From contig NZ_VUMM01000013.1 in the NCBI RefSeq assembly GCF_009696175.1, positions 1 to 46,231 on the forward strand: a stretch of 46,231 nt of DNA. The letters are read 5' to 3'. The stretch is from Floccifex porci (lineage in GTDB: Bacteria; Bacillota_I; Bacilli_A; Erysipelotrichales; Erysipelotrichaceae). The notes beneath the pieces were generated by a model. That model was not told where the DNA came from. It saw only the letters and a program-made list of their open reading frames with translations, and did no database searches. Below, in pieces: positions 1,866 through 43,058 of this stretch (the stretch's first letter is position 1; the number at the start of each line of letters is the position of its first letter). The translations under genes were made by a program, and so were the position numbers.

Positions 1866-1941
1866 TGGTGACGCGTACGGGATTCGAACCCGTGAATGTA
1901 TGCGTGAAAGGCATATGAGTTAACCGTTTCTCCAACGCGCC
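1866..1941 (-). tRNA. tRNA-Glu (UUC), copy 2
   Basis: The same 76-nt tRNA as copy 1, with anticodon TTC and encoded CCA. The flanks differ, so this is a duplicated gene with separate signals and not an assembly repeat of the whole unit. Confidence 0.96.
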
Positions 1942-14989: not shown

Positions 14990-15240
14990 AAAAAAAACGT
15001 CCTTTTTTAATAAAAGGACGTAATTATACGCGGTACCACCTAATTTCCATTCATCTATTATGAATGACACCTTTTTCTTAACGCGAAATAACGATCATTG
15101 CCTCACCTAGTTTCGACAATGCGGTTCCAAGACACGTTCCAGAATATTTCTTTAATAACTTTCACCAGCTGTTATCTCTCTAAAAAAGAAATCTTTCTGT
15201 ACTTCTTCTTTTCATAACCTTTATGCAAAGATTATAACCC
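14990..15240 (-). promoter_or_regulatory. T-box riboswitch leader of the arg operon
   Basis: The minus strand carries the hallmark T-box AGGTGGTACCGCG (15029-15041), followed by the terminator stem ACGTCCTTTT/AAAAGGACGT (14997-15021) with a T-run. Upstream is Stem I material: AGTA, an AGAGAG GA-motif region and GCTGGTGAAAG. In the expected specifier region GGAAC is followed by CGC and then A (codon at 15121-15123), an Arg codon; GGAACGTG slightly upstream is an alternative reading, also containing an Arg codon (CGT). The promoter is TTGAAA (15253-15258) with TATAAT (15231-15236), 16-bp spacer. Uncharged tRNA-Arg should favour antitermination and expression of argGHCJBDF. The specifier call is an inference. 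Confidence 0.93.
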
Positions 15241-36902: not shown

Positions 36903-37625
36903 TTAATCAAAATCCTTTGATTCATATTCTTTCATACGATATCCGACACCGATTTCTGTTTCTATATACTCCGGTTTAGCCGGATTCTTTTCAATTTTTC
37001 GACGTGTGGAAGCCATTGTAGAACGAAGTACCTGTGTATCCTGTCCATATCCATCTCCCCATATTTTCTTCAATATCGTATGATAAGTTAACAGTTTTCC
37101 AGGATTTTTCATAAACAGCAACAATAATTTATATTCAAGTGGAGTAAGATGTATTTTCTGTCCATCTTTATAAGCTAAATGAGCTCCATTATCCAATTTA
37201 AGACTTCCATTTACATAGACAGTCGTATCTTCTTTGCCTGTTTCTGATGGTTTCATACGATAATAATGGCGTAAGGCAACACGGATTCTCGCCATTAATT
37301 CGGTAGCGGAAAATGGTTTTGTTAAATAATCATCCGCTCCATCATCCAATGCATTGGCTTTTTCTTTATCTAAATCTCTTGCGGATACAACAATGATTGG
37401 CACATCCGACCATTCACGTATTTTATGAAGAACCTGCATTCCATCCATATCAGGAAGACCTAAATCCAACAAAATTAAATCTGCATTTTCTTTGATCATA
37501 CAGGAAATTCCATCTTTTCCATTTAAAGTTCCTTTTACTTCAAAACCTTCATTTTCTAAAGTATAGACCATAAAATTCTGAATTTGAACATCATCTTCTA
37601 TCACAAGTATTTTTTCCTTAAACAT
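36903..37625 (-). CDS. kdpE: KdpE-like response regulator (first of two)
   Basis: A 240-aa OmpR/PhoB-type regulator. The receiver (about 5-120) has the acidic pair EDD, the phospho-Asp in ILLDLGLPDMDG and the Lys in YLTKPFS; a winged-helix DNA-binding domain follows (about 140-235). It overlaps the kdpD stop by 8 nt with GAAGGAG upstream, so it is the cognate partner of that kinase. No kdpFABC genes are in the window. Confidence 0.9.
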   Translation of the reverse strand: MFKEKILVIEDDVQIQNFMVYTLENEGFEVKGTLNGKDGISCMIKENADLILLDLGLPDMDGMQVLHKIREWSDVPIIVVSARDLDKEKANALDDGADDYLTKPFSATELMARIRVALRHYYRMKPSETGKEDTTVYVNGSLKLDNGAHLAYKDGQKIHLTPLEYKLLLLFMKNPGKLLTYHTILKKIWGDGYGQDTQVLRSTMASTRRKIEKNPAKPEYIETEIGVGYRMKEYESKDFD

Positions 37626-39120
37626 GATTCGCTCCTTCTTTAAGTGGCAATGTAAAAGTGAATTCAGCTCCTTTTGAATCTGTACGATTCTTTCCCGTAA
37701 TGGTACCACCATGTGCTTTTATGACCGTTTCACAAATTGTAAGTCCCAATCCAATTCCCTTTTTCGCATCCGAAAGATGGGTATTTGATGTATAAAAGAT
37801 TTTAAACAAGTTCGATAAATCTTCTTCTGCAATTCCTTCTCCCTCATCAAATACACGTACCACCACTTCTTTTTCTGTATAATATGTACTTATAGTAATG
37901 TTTTCTTCTGGCTTTGTATGTTTGATCGCATTATCCAAAAGATTAATGATAACTTGTTCAATTAAACGAGCATCCATCGGCACCAGACAAAATTCATCAG
38001 GAATCTCAACTTGAATTTCTCTATATGGATGCACTCTTTCAATATGAGAAACCGCACTTCCAATGACTTCTTCGATTGCTTCCATTTCTTTTCGGATCAC
38101 AACCTTTCCATCCTGGATCCTGGTCAGACTCAAAATATTTTCAACTAAAGATTTTAACCAGTCCGCATCCTGATAAATACCCTGAAGCAAGCTTTGAGAT
38201 GGATCCTTTTTATCCATCATATCCATCAGCATTTCAGAAGTTCCCATGATTCCAGATAAAGGTGTACGCAAATCATGAGAGATCGAACGCAATAGATTGG
38301 CACGCTGACTTTCTCTTTCCATTTTTTCTTTGTCCTTTACTCTTTCAATGGTAATTTCAATACGATCCATCGCCATGGATACATTTTCAATTATCGAATG
38401 AAGCAATTTTTTCTTTTGTTTCAGACAGTCTATTTCTACTTTTAAATCAATTTTTATAATTGCCAGTAAATGTTCTTTCCCATATACCGGAAAACCAAAA
38501 CTATCCAAATCTTCTAAATACTCTTCTCTAAGATTTGTATATGTTTTCACAATTTCATCCACATTCGTCACCGTTCTATGAATTTGTCTGTCTTCAATTT
38601 GTTGAACATATACAGGATTTTTCTGTTCTCCAACATAGATACAACCTACACTGGTCTGTAAAAGCTGACTTATGCTTTCAACAGTAACTTTCAAAACCGC
38701 TTCTAAATCCGCTGCATCGGATAATTTACTGGATAGATTGTATAGAATCTGTGTTTCTTCTCCTTTATCATTTGCTTCTTTTGTCATTAACTTTTCTTTT
38801 GTGGTTAACGCGCTTGTTAAGATAGAAGTGATCAGCATAATAAAAAAAGTAATCAAATAAGACGGATCGTTCACAAATAATGTATGATAAGGCGCTGTAA
38901 AAAAATAGTTGAAACAAACGATAGATAAAATGGCAGACAATATTCCATATGTATATCCATTTGTAAAACGAGCAACCAATAAAACAGCCAATAGATAGAT
39001 CACAACAATATTGGTTTCTGGAAATTCATATTGTTTAAAAATTTGTCCTAATACCGTAATTAAGAATACAATTCCTATTAATTTTAGTACATCAAGTAAC
39101 CATTCATTCTTTTTATTCAT
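37618..39120 (-). CDS. kdpD: KdpD-like sensor kinase lacking the N-terminal KdpD/Usp domains
   Basis: A 500-aa histidine kinase. It has four membrane helices (DUF4118, about 10-110), a GAF-like domain (about 130-240), a HisKA domain with His in RSISHDLRTPLSG (about 280) and an ATPase domain with LLDNAIKHT and GIGLGLTICETV. Standard KdpD has about 390 more N-terminal residues (KdpD and Usp domains), absent here. The start at 39120 has GTGGAG upstream. A TTGTAT-N18-TATAAT promoter lies next to the kdpE2 terminator. Confidence 0.92.
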   Translation of the reverse strand: MNKKNEWLLDVLKLIGIVFLITVLGQIFKQYEFPETNIVVIYLLAVLLVARFTNGYTYGILSAILSIVCFNYFFTAPYHTLFVNDPSYLITFFIMLITSILTSALTTKEKLMTKEANDKGEETQILYNLSSKLSDAADLEAVLKVTVESISQLLQTSVGCIYVGEQKNPVYVQQIEDRQIHRTVTNVDEIVKTYTNLREEYLEDLDSFGFPVYGKEHLLAIIKIDLKVEIDCLKQKKKLLHSIIENVSMAMDRIEITIERVKDKEKMERESQRANLLRSISHDLRTPLSGIMGTSEMLMDMMDKKDPSQSLLQGIYQDADWLKSLVENILSLTRIQDGKVVIRKEMEAIEEVIGSAVSHIERVHPYREIQVEIPDEFCLVPMDARLIEQVIINLLDNAIKHTKPEENITISTYYTEKEVVVRVFDEGEGIAEEDLSNLFKIFYTSNTHLSDAKKGIGLGLTICETVIKAHGGTITGKNRTDSKGAEFTFTLPLKEGANHV

Positions 39121-39175
39121 TTTATCTCCACTCAAATCTTCTTTTTAAGATTATAATCTATTCTTTATCCAAATA

Positions 39176-39206
39176 CAAAAAATACCCATACCTATGAGTA
39201 TGGGTA
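39176..39206 (-). terminator. terminator after the second kdpE-like gene
   Basis: The stem TACCCATA/TATGGGTA is followed by a T-run on the minus strand. It separates kdpE2 from kdpD. Confidence 0.85.
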
Positions 39207-39220
39207 AACTAATTTATATT

Positions 39221-39919
39221 TCATTGTTTTATCATACAATATCCAATTCCTACATGAGTTTGAATGAACATATTTGAATTATCTTTTTTTTCAATCTTTT
39301 TTCTAAGTGTTGCGACATGTACACGAAGACTTGCGACATTCCCTTCTAAAGAACTTCCCCATATTTCTTTTGTGATAAATGTATGCGTTAAAACACGACC
39401 TAAATTTTTTGCCAATAGACATATAATTTTATATTCTAGGGGTGTTACATGAATTTCCTGATTTTTAACCAGTACCGTTTGCATCTGATAATCTATGGTC
39501 AAACTTCCATTGTGAAAATACGGAGTTCCATCATTCTGATTGTTTTGGATATACTGTATCCTTCTAAAATTCCCTCGAATTCGCGCCAGAAGTTCAGCGG
39601 TTGAAAAAGGTTTGGTGATATAATCATCAGCACCTGCATCCAAAGCATCAATTTTATCTTTATCTTCGCTTCGAGCACTGATGACAGTAATAGGAACCAT
39701 TGACCAGGAACGTATTTTTCTGATTACTTCGATTCCGTCCATATCTGGAAGCCCTAAATCCAATAAAATGAGTTTAGGCGTCTGGGTTGTTGCTTCAATA
39801 ATCGTCTGATTCCCATTTTTTGCGATACGATACTTATAATTTTCCGTTTCAAGAGCGGTTGTGATCAGATTACGGATTGCTGTATCATCTTCTACTACTA
39901 ATATATTCGAATTAATCAT
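39221..39919 (-). CDS. KdpE-like response regulator (second copy)
   Basis: A 232-aa OmpR-type regulator clearly related to the first kdpE product: LLDLGLPDMDGIEVIRKIRSWS and DDYITKPFSTAELLARIR match closely. Receiver about 1-118, winged helix about 135-230. It has its own promoter (TAGTAT at 39949-39954 with a TGA extension) overlapped by a dyad, and its own terminator. It lies between trkH and kdpD. It may share KdpD as its kinase or be driven by another. Confidence 0.9.
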   Translation of the reverse strand: MINSNILVVEDDTAIRNLITTALETENYKYRIAKNGNQTIIEATTQTPKLILLDLGLPDMDGIEVIRKIRSWSMVPITVISARSEDKDKIDALDAGADDYITKPFSTAELLARIRGNFRRIQYIQNNQNDGTPYFHNGSLTIDYQMQTVLVKNQEIHVTPLEYKIICLLAKNLGRVLTHTFITKEIWGSSLEGNVASLRVHVATLRKKIEKKDNSNMFIQTHVGIGYCMIKQ

Positions 39920-39948
39920 GATTTTTCCTCCTTATAGAATCTAAAGTG

Positions 39949-39984
39949 ATACTATCATTCTCTTTCTTAAATATGTATAAAGAG
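39949..39984 (-). promoter_or_regulatory. promoter and dyad upstream of the second kdpE-like gene
   Basis: On the minus strand TAGTAT (39949-39954) has a TGA extended -10 and a weak -35 (TACATA, 39972-39977). An inverted repeat CTCTTT/AAAGAG spans 39960-39984, covering the spacer and -35. It could be an operator, perhaps for self-regulation. This is an inference. Confidence 0.4.
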
Positions 39985-40016
39985 GATTCATTAAGGTATT
40001 AAGAAGATAAAAAGAT

Positions 40017-41417
40017 TTATTTTTTAAATAAAGCCTGAATCAGCACAAAAATTTCCAGTCTTCCTAAAATCATTCCAATAATTTCAATTAAAAGACAAAT
40101 AGAAGTAGTACTTGCACTAGTTACTCCAATGGAAAGTCCGACTGTTCCCAGTGAAGATGCAAATTCAAACGCTCCTTCTAATACGGTACATCCTGAAAAA
40201 AAAGTTAAAGCAATCGTTCCAGCCATAAAGATTAAAAGATACGTCTGTGCATATGTTAAAGCTTCTTCTACCTGTGAAAACTCCAGCAATTCTTTTTCAC
40301 TTCCTTTACAGTAATAAGTTAGAGTCACTCTACGATCCGGTATCATTTTCTTTTTAATATTCCATACCATATTCTTTATCAGTATGCAGACTCTGCCTAA
40401 TTTAATTCCCCCAGCTGTAGATCCTATACCTCCACCTACAATCATAAGAAGGATCATAATTGTTAATGCCGTTTCAGGCCATTGGCTATAGCTGCATGTC
40501 GAATATCCTGTCGTGGATAAAGCGGAAAACGCATTAAAGAAAGCCAATTCACTGCTATTTGACAAGGATTCTCCATTTCCTGCAAGAAATATAGTCATCA
40601 ATGGAATGGAAATTAAAATCACTCCAATTAAAAAGCGAATTTCACTGGATCTAAAAAAATCTTTAAATCGTTTACGAAATAAAAGCAGTAATAAAGAAAA
40701 GTTGGTCGTTCCAATCAACATAAGAAAAACAGTAATCCATTCAATAGGTAGTGAATGATAATATCCAATGCTTTCCAATCGATTTGAAAAACCTCCAGTA
40801 GATAAGGCACACATACTGTGAACCAGACTATCAAATACAGGCATTCCAAAGACGGTATATAATATTGTTCCCACAAGAAGGAAAAAACCATACATCATCA
40901 CAATGACTTTTACCGTTTTTCCAATCGTAGGCATTAATTTATCCGGATGACCTTCTGCCTGGTACAAAGTAACCGATTCTTTTTCCTGTATAAACAGAAG
41001 CATCATCATTACAAACCCTAAGCCTCCTACATACTGAAGAAATCCTCGATAGAACAAATAGATATGAGGAAGGCTTTCTACATCCAGTACAGATAAACCG
41101 GTTGTGGTAAATCCGCTGACGGATTCAAAAAGGGACTGTATAAAACTCATATTTCCCAGACAATAGAATGGAATCGATGCCAGTAAAAAACCATACCCCC
41201 AGGCAAAGACAACCAGTCGATAACTGTTCAATTCTCCTTTCTTTTTCTGAAAAACCAATAATCCAAGTAAAATAGAACTTAAAGATGGAATCAGAAATTT
41301 AAAACTATAGACAATTTCTTTTGGATAAAACGGGATAACCAGCAATGGAATCAACAAGATACAACCTTCCAATACCATCATCTTTCCCATAATCGAGATT
41401 CCTTTAAGATACTTCAT
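40017..41417 (-). CDS. trkH: TrkH/KtrB-family potassium transporter
   Basis: A 466-aa potassium channel-like transporter with four membrane-pore-membrane repeats. The filter segments are SVSGFTTTGLS (about 97), STGGFSNR (about 205), STTGYSTC (about 310) and SLGTVGLSIG (about 430). It needs cytosolic RCK (TrkA/KtrA) subunits, encoded directly upstream; the start overlaps the second of these by 14 nt. GGAGATG lies before the ATG. Confidence 0.94.
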   Translation of the reverse strand: MKYLKGISIMGKMMVLEGCILLIPLLVIPFYPKEIVYSFKFLIPSLSSILLGLLVFQKKKGELNSYRLVVFAWGYGFLLASIPFYCLGNMSFIQSLFESVSGFTTTGLSVLDVESLPHIYLFYRGFLQYVGGLGFVMMMLLFIQEKESVTLYQAEGHPDKLMPTIGKTVKVIVMMYGFFLLVGTILYTVFGMPVFDSLVHSMCALSTGGFSNRLESIGYYHSLPIEWITVFLMLIGTTNFSLLLLLFRKRFKDFFRSSEIRFLIGVILISIPLMTIFLAGNGESLSNSSELAFFNAFSALSTTGYSTCSYSQWPETALTIMILLMIVGGGIGSTAGGIKLGRVCILIKNMVWNIKKKMIPDRRVTLTYYCKGSEKELLEFSQVEEALTYAQTYLLIFMAGTIALTFFSGCTVLEGAFEFASSLGTVGLSIGVTSASTTSICLLIEIIGMILGRLEIFVLIQALFKK

Positions 41418-42096
41418 ATTCTGTCATCTCCTTAACCTGATTCATTTTAGTCTTATCTGAAGTTATAATTAAAAGAATATCTCCCTCCATAAGACGAGTA
41501 TCTCCTCTAGGAATCAGACTTTGTTCCCCTCTAAGAATGCAGCCAATAATAATTTCTTTTGGAAAATTTAATTCCCATAATTTTTTTCCAGCTGCTTTTG
41601 AATGTTTAGAAATAGGCAGTTCAAATATTTGTATTCTTCCTTGATCAAATGGATTCATTTTTGTCATTTCATCCATTAGAGCCTGTTCTTCCATAATATT
41701 GGTAATCATATTCAATGCACATACGACACGATCAATTCCCATCTGATAAAAAAAATCAGTTTTTGATGGATCTTTTAATAAAGCTACCGTTTTCTTTACA
41801 TGAAAAAACTGTTTACACATTTCACAAATCACAAGATTGTCTTCATCCACATCGGTTAAAGCTATGGCAACCTGACACTGATTGGCTGAAGCATCTTCTA
41901 AAATATATTTTTTGCTTCCATCTCCATAAATCACATTCAATCGATTCACTTCAGCTAATTTTTCACAAGCTTCATAATCTTTATTAATAACCGTTACATG
42001 ATACCCTTTATCTAATAATGAATTCGCAAGAGATCTTGCTTTATGAAACCCTCCTACGATCAATATATTTTTATGTTCTCTTCTTTTATTCCACAT
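41404..42096 (-). CDS. TrkA-like RCK protein, N and C domains
   Basis: A 230-aa regulatory subunit with an RCK_N domain (about 15-135) and an RCK_C domain (about 150-225). The nucleotide-binding glycine loop is degenerate (IVGGFHKARSLA in place of GxGxxG), so it may not bind NAD or ATP in the usual way. The RCK_C domain keeps LPRGDTRL-like IPRGDTRLMEGD. The start at 42096 has GGAAGTG upstream and overlaps the other RCK gene by 11 nt. Confidence 0.87.
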   Translation of the reverse strand: MWNKRREHKNILIVGGFHKARSLANSLLDKGYHVTVINKDYEACEKLAEVNRLNVIYGDGSKKYILEDASANQCQVAIALTDVDEDNLVICEMCKQFFHVKKTVALLKDPSKTDFFYQMGIDRVVCALNMITNIMEEQALMDEMTKMNPFDQGRIQIFELPISKHSKAAGKKLWELNFPKEIIIGCILRGEQSLIPRGDTRLMEGDILLIITSDKTKMNQVKEMTEYEVS

Positions 42097-42517
42097 GGGC
42101 TTCACTTCCAATTTCTATATAATTGTTGATTTCTTTTTCCGATAGTTCACTTGGGCAAATCGCATCAATATTCATTTTTTCTACAAGATCCAATTTCTGT
42201 TCATCATAAATTCTTGCGACCACTTTTGGAATATGAAACAGCTTCTTTGCGATTTGCGCAGCACAAATATTCACACAATCGTGATTGGTTACCGCAATAA
42301 ATACCGTTGCCTTGTCTAGTTCCATCGTTTTAAATTTTTCAATATCCGTTGCACTTGCTGTTAATGTCAGACCCCCATATGAATAAGGAAGTTTACGAAA
42401 AGCACTTTTATCGCAATCCAGAATCACAACGTCTTTTTTCTTTTCCGATAGCTTCCCTGCTATACTGGCTCCCAATCGTCCACAACCCACAATCACAACA
42501 CAACCATTTTCTTCCAT
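42086..42517 (-). CDS. TrkA-like RCK_N-only protein
   Basis: A 143-aa potassium-transport regulator with a single RCK_N domain and an intact GCGRLGASIA nucleotide loop (about 10-19), plus the acidic strand end VILDCDKS. No RCK_C domain follows. AGGAGG lies 7 nt before ATG 42517, so this start is preferred over one 2 codons earlier. It probably forms a ring with the 230-aa protein under TrkH. Confidence 0.87.
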   Translation of the reverse strand: MEENGCVVIVGCGRLGASIAGKLSEKKKDVVILDCDKSAFRKLPYSYGGLTLTASATDIEKFKTMELDKATVFIAVTNHDCVNICAAQIAKKLFHIPKVVARIYDEQKLDLVEKMNIDAICPSELSEKEINNYIEIGSEAHVE

Positions 42518-42528
42518 AGTCATTCCTC

Positions 42529-42882
42529 CTATTTTCTTATAAGATGTCTTACATTATGCGCATCATACACTTCTTTAAACTGTGAATCTTTTTGAATCTG
42601 ACAATCCTTTTCCGAATAGGCACATTCAACTACAAAATTCATAGATCCATATTGTTCCATGTTGTAGCGAGCTGGAATATAAGTGGGATCTAAGGCATAA
42701 GAGGCACGAAAATGTTTCATTGCCTGCACATGATTCTTTTCTTTTTCCATTAAAATTCCCATCAAATTATGAGGAATTGCAGAATGAGGATCTTGAAACA
42801 TGGCTTCTTTAATTTTATTTTCACATTTTCTATATTCATGACATGCAATCAGTTTTTTGCATTCCTCTTCCAGATTTTTCAT
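42529..42882 (-). CDS. TPR-like protein heading the Trk operon
   Basis: A 117-aa cytosolic protein with about two tetratricopeptide-like helix pairs (for example IPHNLMGILMEKEKNHVQAM and YALDPTYIPARYNMEQYG, residues about 35-80). No catalytic motif. AAGGAAA precedes the ATG. It is the first gene of the TPR-RCK-RCK-trkH operon and may be an adaptor. Function unknown. Confidence 0.75.
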   Translation of the reverse strand: MKNLEEECKKLIACHEYRKCENKIKEAMFQDPHSAIPHNLMGILMEKEKNHVQAMKHFRASYALDPTYIPARYNMEQYGSMNFVVECAYSEKDCQIQKDSQFKEVYDAHNVRHLIRK

Positions 42883-42912
42883 TCCATTTCCTTCTTTCTT
42901 TTGTATTTGAAG

Positions 42913-42942
42913 TATATATTTTTTCTTGTAGTAACACTGTAA
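42913..42942 (-). promoter_or_regulatory. putative promoter of the Trk operon
   Basis: On the minus strand TTACAG (42937-42942) and TATATA (42913-42918) are 18 bp apart, with a leader of about 25 nt to the ribosome site. The AT-rich context allows other registers. Three direct repeats lie just upstream. Confidence 0.45.
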
Positions 42943-42948
42943 GATATC

Positions 42949-43024
42949 TATAAGAATTCTGTGGATTATTTAAATGAATATAAAAAACCTGTGATATTTT
43001 CCAGAACGTGTAAAAAAGCTGTGA
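42949..43024 (-). repeat. three 16-bp direct repeats with exact 30-bp period
   Basis: On the plus strand the units are TGTAAAAAAGCTGTGA (43009-43024), TATAAAAAACCTGTGA (42979-42994) and TATAAGAATTCTGTGG (42949-42964). On the transcribed sense they read TCACAG followed by T-rich TTTACA or TTTATA. They occupy about -45 to -115 relative to the inferred Trk start site, a usual place for activator binding. KdpE of E. coli binds T-rich TTTATA/TTTACA-type half sites; the match is an inference. Confidence 0.7.
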
Positions 43025-43058
43025 AAAAAGGATGTAAATCATAATTGATTTACATCCT
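43024..43058 (-). terminator. terminator of the redox operon
   Basis: A perfect 13-bp stem (AGGATGTAAATCA with its complement) is followed by six T's on the minus strand, about 40 nt after the CMD-cupin stop. Confidence 0.88.

Follow-up and report, generated by a model that had tools for sequence, protein, structure and literature searches.

A conserved array of direct-repeat pairs as a probable KdpE-type operator of a Trk potassium-uptake operon in Floccifex porci

Introduction

Response regulators of the OmpR family are known to use operators built from direct repeats, and sites for KdpE have been described as well. The half-sites recognised by KdpE in Escherichia coli read TTTATA-N5-TTTACA (PMC3264566), and at the target promoters of PhoB it is an activator dimer that takes the place of the -35 element (PMC3348028). 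In the textbook division of labour Trk is constitutive, and KdpFABC is induced by KdpDE (PMC3610689).

The locus presented here lies in a 46,231-nucleotide stretch of Floccifex porci DNA (the whole of which is hereafter called the window) and consists of a Trk operon preceded by an array of direct repeats, which a preliminary description, made from the sequence alone, had tentatively read as activator sites of a KdpE switch. The array shares features of both operator types introduced above, and probably serves a KdpE-like regulator in the control of Trk.

Gene content of the operon

The operon (36903-42882) comprises the following genes, listed in the order of transcription:

42529..42882, minus strand: small TPR-like protein of 117 aa, encoded first in the operon (the family also precedes trk or kdpABC elsewhere)
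42086..42523, minus strand: TrkA1, TrkA_N domain only, 145 aa
41404..42111, minus strand: TrkA2, TrkA_N and TrkA_C domains, 235 aa
40017..41417, minus strand: TrkH, potassium-translocating subunit, 466 aa
39221..39919, minus strand: KdpE1, OmpR-family response regulator
37618..39135, minus strand: short KdpD-like kinase with DUF4118, HisKA and HATPase domains
36903..37712, minus strand: KdpE2, OmpR-family response regulator (accompanies these arrays in Lachnospiraceae)

Assignment to the Trk system is given by the Pfam matches to TrkH, TrkA_N and TrkA_C, with TrkA divided over two genes. The split, into the TrkA_N-only TrkA1 and a complete single-unit TrkA2 encoded by overlapping genes (42086-42111), is seen throughout these operons. 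The kinase is devoid of the N-terminal KdpD/Usp part, covering positions 399-884 of the 895 of the KdpD model (269 vs 1123 bits). The two KdpE-like regulators that the preliminary description had placed downstream are indeed encoded there: of all NCBIfam families KdpE matches the two best, and it is also among their top PDB matches. The wording "KdpE-like" is kept because neither reaches the 325 bits that NCBIfam sets for a KdpE equivalog, their scores being 202 and 194.

The TPR-like protein has no Pfam match, is modelled by AlphaFold2 as five helices followed by a C-terminal strand hairpin (pLDDT 88) and is encoded at the head of Trk operons as well as KdpABC operons in two Firmicutes classes; a described role for it was not found in the searched literature. 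No KdpA was detected in the genome of F. porci itself, and the only TrkA_N matches found there with TrkA1 were the two genes of the operon. The same genome holds a second TrkH-family gene (G000:C40:39741-40976, L190), a 444-codon frame that probably encodes a KtrB-type transporter.

Elsewhere in the window, a T-box leader (15011-15224, minus strand) precedes an argG-like gene (14951-13701) together with a cluster for arginine biosynthesis, and two tRNA genes of equal Rfam scores (1684-1756 and 1869-1941, minus strand) are found 185 bp apart.

Architecture of the repeat array

The elements preceding the operon, read in its direction, are as follows (ranks are those of a matrix built from other loci, see below):

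43029..43058, minus strand: intrinsic terminator of the upstream CMD/cupin gene, with a 13-bp perfect stem, a 4-nt loop and a T-run
43009..43025, minus strand: site pair P1, TTCACA-gcttt-TTTACA; matrix rank 1 of 92,426; aligns with pair 1 of the Lachnospiraceae arrays
42979..42995, minus strand: site pair P2, ATCACA-ggttt-TTTATA, 30 bp from P1; matrix rank 9 of 92,426, and alignment
42949..42965, minus strand: site pair P3, TCCACA-gaatt-CTTATA, 30 bp from P2; matrix rank 17 of 92,426, and alignment
42927..42943, minus strand: promoter-proximal site pair P4, CTTACA-gtgtt-ACTACA, 22 bp from P3; matrix rank 35 of 92,426, and alignment
42911..42916, minus strand: -10 element TATACT, exactly 10 bp past P4
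42889..42894, minus strand: ribosome-binding site GAAGGA before the ATG at 42882, read from the sequence

The order on the minus strand is thus terminator (AGGATGTAAATCA-atta-TGATTTACATCCT), T-run leading directly into P1, P1 -13- P2 -13- P3 -5- P4 -10- TATACT, GAAGGA and the ATG at 42882; no RNA element was found in Rfam at the array. The three units originally described (43009-43024, 42979-42994 and 42949-42964) are present at an exact 30-bp period, with identities of 14/16 between units 1 and 2, 12/16 between 2 and 3, and 11/16 between 1 and 3; a repeat finder joins only units 1 and 2, and not unit 3. The motifs said to be shared by these units are likewise there, but each supposed single unit is composed of two half-sites: CTGTG, which reads CACAG on the minus strand, belongs to the first half, and TTTACA/TTTATA form the second. 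The fourth copy, described as partial and offset by 22 bp, is real (42943-42927), although it is actually a full, promoter-proximal pair. All four pairs consist of two direct half-sites in a hexamer-N5-hexamer arrangement with an 11-bp step. Kdp sites of the E. coli type open with an invariant TT in each half; here TTCACA, TTTACA and TTTATA start in this way and the others (ATCACA, TCCACA, CTTATA, CTTACA and ACTACA) do not, and relatives differ in this respect by lineage.

Recurrence and conservation of the array

Within the window alone, at least 6 identical 5-mers recur at a distance of 30, where 0.38 are expected, a value reached in 3 of 2000 dinucleotide shuffles, uncorrected for the about 65 distances examined. 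So moderate an excess leaves some room for a reading of the array as chance A/T-rich repeats, or as remnants of local duplication without a function, and it is the other genomes that speak against it.

The small TPR-like protein served as the handle for finding homologous operons, its gene being present in 42 of the 316 genomes of the own order and matched in 18 of the 397 genomes of the family of Clostridium porci (two of these matches being weak). In about 35 homologous operons of Erysipelotrichales and Lachnospiraceae, pairs stand 30-32 bp apart, the last of them is N10 from the -10, and a -35 is missing; the half-sites are CTCACA-like in some genera and TTTATA/TTAACA-like in others. When the upstream regions of such operons were analysed in a motif-free manner for 22 genus-level representatives, leaving out the window, repeated 5-mers peaked at distances 11 (z 22.6), 31 (11.2), 20 (7.6) and 42 (6.1), which are those expected for half-N5-half, N14, half-N5-half, and the peaks were reached in none of 300 dinucleotide shuffles. 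The layout [half-N5-half]-N14/15-[half-N5-half]-N10-TANNAT was scored as well, and 31 of the 39 Erysipelotrichales loci beat all of their own shuffles; that score was hand-built after a first inspection of the loci, which makes the 5-mer distance test the cleaner one.

A matrix built solely from 22 other loci was then run over the 92,426 positions of the window, both strands included, and three pairs chained at 30-bp steps scored 38 as compared to 1 for the next-best place in the window, while the best match (rank 1) of a pair-N10-(-10) model fell exactly on P4-TATACT. These top ranks come from models blind to the window, and the layout is kept at the roughly 35 loci in two classes while the flanking sequence diverges. 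Such conservation of the layout refutes the chance or remnant reading, to which we leave almost no probability: the repeats are real and widely conserved.

Conservation of the motif in related genomes, which the preliminary description had put forward as a check, is borne out by arrays kept before homologous TPR-TrkA-TrkA-TrkH operons with KdpDE adjoining. The order in Lachnospiraceae is KdpD-KdpE2-terminator-array-TPR-TrkA1-TrkA2-TrkH, the arrays there counting 3-4 pairs with steps of 30/30/31-32 bp and ending N10 before a TATACT-like -10. Two culturable relatives, Anaerostipes sp. 992a (L105) and Clostridium porci (L103), are among the carriers of this array. Genes for KdpD/KdpE adjoin nearly all array operons, usually just upstream of the array, and in the window downstream of TrkH. 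P1-P4 align one-to-one with the four Lachnospiraceae pairs, the window having a 10-bp gap between P3 and P4; as one turn of DNA takes about 10.5 bp, the pairs remain roughly in phase.

The TPR gene is followed by KdpA-KdpB-KdpC, and not by Trk, at a number of loci (L089, L090, L097, L129, L130, L132, L133 and L136), canonical arrays standing before TPR-KdpABC in L097 and L136, and several genomes carry Trk and Kdp operons side by side. In genus g45 (L068, L069), a canonical array and TPR gene come after kdpABC-kdpDE and are followed by an arginine cluster (from an argG-like gene onward), with no Trk.

A genome-wide scan of 30 genomes with a sequence-only model from 13 array promoters returned matches in 24 of them, as a rule one array per genome, situated at the potassium operon. 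One genome (G164) has an extra strong array (L172, G164:C25:26099-26169, E 1e-10) in front of an ORF that has no recognised role in potassium. In the 2.02 Mb genome of F. porci, exact matches to the repeat unit number two, both in the array; with up to 3 mismatches, TCACAGNTTTTTTANA has 951 matches vs 752 for the reversed control, a search informative for exact matches only. The pattern of a single pair, N10 and a -10 is not enriched across this genome (75 vs 104 in the control), and it is the array as a whole that is unusual, not single pair-N10-(-10) matches. A two-pair sequence model has no match in this genome and misses the window because its spacing of 30/30/22 differs, so that no regulon beyond the Trk operon is definable there.

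Promoter and direction of control

At the window promoter no -35 hexamer is recognisable, the best candidate being CAGTGT with 1/6 matches, and a scan for the sigma-70 consensus gave a chance-level match only. The -35 that the preliminary description had proposed within the fourth copy falls inside the P4 site and has to be given up. Across these promoters, the -35 position shows 1.58/6 consensus matches vs 2.56 in shuffles (none of 2000 shuffles being as low), and the spacing between the activator pair and the -10 is N10 in most loci. A depleted -35 together with a fixed N10 points to an activator-dependent promoter with the lowest dimer replacing the -35, so that the array promoter, judged by its sequence, appears to be of the PhoB-like type, its pair abutting the -10 at a fixed distance.

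Transcription would start about 7 nt past the -10, near 42904, and the pair centres would then lie at about -31, -53, -83 and -113. With the start so placed, the upper three agree with the proposed placement at about -50, -80 and -110, and the start itself is predicted downstream of the array, not upstream of it, the position that had been named as incompatible with the proposal.

The same arrangement might also be taken as that of a KdpE operator at which the regulator represses by covering the promoter, or at which the upper pairs repress and the lowest activates, since the lowest pair is 10 bp from the -10, the array is about 100 bp long and autoregulated OmpR-family operators can repress. 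The -35, however, is missing beyond chance, as is expected of activator-dependent promoters, and an N10 that is fixed across classes suits contact with the polymerase, which is why we consider repression quite improbable and continue with activation.

Candidate regulators and a proposed mechanism

The likeness of the TTTACA/TTTATA cores to KdpE half-sites, pointed out from the start, extends to the geometry, which is that of the TTTATA-N5-TTTACA of E. coli KdpE (PMC3264566); counting against KdpE is that the half-sites here are mostly of the TCACA type, not TTTATA. Another OmpR-family regulator (e.g., PhoP/PhoB, WalR or an orphan) might bind the array and tie Trk to phosphate or envelope stress, given that the family in general uses head-to-tail repeats at an 11-bp step (PMC4415409), that the PhoP boxes of S. 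coelicolor contain GTTCACC, close to TTCACA, and that both the N10 placement and the lack of a -35 resemble PhoB promoters. Yet KdpD/KdpE adjoin nearly all of the operons in two classes, the same type of array precedes kdpABC, and the arrays are almost limited to potassium operons at about one per genome, whereas a phosphate regulator would have many targets. We therefore regard a regulator from outside the KdpE type as unlikely. The proposed KdpE-type switch on Trk instead of KdpFABC, for its part, gains support from the conserved arrays, the adjoining KdpDE, the arrays before TPR-KdpABC elsewhere and the lack of a detected KdpA.

The interpretation that we favour, and hold with good confidence, is that a KdpE-like regulator, most likely KdpE2, activates the Trk operon via the four-pair operator and a PhoB-like promoter with no -35. 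Binding by the regulator, the identity of the acting KdpE and activation over repression are all inferred here, as is low potassium or osmotic stress as the signal, suggested by the KdpDE family and the transporters. The presence of two KdpE genes makes the assignment ambiguous: KdpE2 is the first candidate because it accompanies the array in Lachnospiraceae, and KdpE1 follows as a plausible alternative. Lineages with CTCACA sites and those with TTTATA sites have different recognition helices in KdpE2, and an unusual helix (DTQVLRSTMASTRRK) is common to the window and the relatives with 30-bp arrays; such a link between helix and site type is suggestive, being confounded by phylogeny and broken by KdpE1-type proteins.

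Under the favoured interpretation, phosphorylated KdpE2 dimers would bind head-to-tail on each 17-bp pair, possibly with a contribution from KdpE1, and could stack on one face of the DNA because the pair steps of 30, 30 and 22 bp are close to whole helical turns. The dimer on P4 would replace the missing -35, with the upper dimers stacked upstream of it, and as P4 stands in for the -35, RNA polymerase would be recruited by the regulator in the manner of PhoB. As a result, TPR-TrkA1-TrkA2-TrkH-KdpE1-KdpD-KdpE2 would be induced, and the regulators would be subject to positive feedback.

Origin of the operon and wider meaning

With Lachnospiraceae proteins (from Clostridium porci, Anaerostipes sp. 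992a and MAGs) the TrkH of the window shares 70-79% identity, as against at most about 64% with those of its own order, and the TPR gene is absent from four genomes of the same genus. The operon thus looks acquired from Lachnospiraceae, horizontal transfer being the simplest reading. Contamination of a MAG as the source of the contig was rejected, as the rpsB gene of this contig shares 87-98% identity with its counterparts in the four same-genus genomes.

The terminator after the CMD/cupin gene resembles that of two other loci (L107/L108), located at the same place, after KdpE2. This resemblance suggests that terminator and array may have moved together, with KdpDE relocated behind TrkH. KdpE1 is 75% identical to the KdpE found after KdpABC-KdpD in another Lachnospiraceae genome (L129, 16373-16999), and may on account of this identity be a relic of a lost kdpABCDE operon.

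A broader proposal, for and against which we see about equal weight, is that of a transferable potassium cassette of gut Firmicutes, in which the KdpE array and the TPR gene are fixed and the transporter is swapped between KdpABC and Trk; in the window, the pump would be gone, the sensor part of the kinase lost, the array shared by two KdpE proteins, and Trk now inducible under KdpDE control, with pair number and phase setting the response. A KdpE-type regulator appears to be wired to Trk across many gut Firmicutes, in contrast to the constitutive Trk of the reviews (PMC3610689). The array provides a consensus for locating potassium-controlled operons in Erysipelotrichales and Lachnospiraceae, and its operons draw attention to a TPR protein, so far unstudied, that is linked to potassium uptake. 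Site number, spacing and half-site type form a natural series with matching KdpE variants, and this series lends itself to the study of DNA recognition by the OmpR family.

Comparison with known systems

The searched literature, in which few subscription journals were represented, held no KdpE-type control of Trk, helix-phased multi-pair array, transporter swap or TPR protein of this kind, nor any case in which KdpE works from a PhoB-like site that overlaps the -35.

With the KdpE operator of E. coli kdpFABC (PMC3264566), the array shares direct 6-bp half-sites, a 5-bp spacer, A/T-richness and a second half of the TTTAYA type, and with the kdp system as a whole, a KdpE-like regulator and a KdpD-like kinase. 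There is, however, one pair there and four here, TCACA predominates among the first halves here, the lowest pair lies N10 from the -10 and no -35 is present, and the target is Trk, not KdpFABC. The pho boxes of PhoB/PhoP (PMC4415409, PMC3348028) are similar in their head-to-tail 11-bp step, in a site overlapping the -35 position and in their multiplicity, but the array is linked to KdpDE and potassium genes and has about one target per genome, and its pairs are separated by whole turns (30-32 bp), whereas pho boxes are contiguous. As for the division between Trk and Kdp (PMC3610689), the protein families are the same, and the difference is that a KdpDE-type system here appears to be wired to Trk, in a genome with no detected KdpA.
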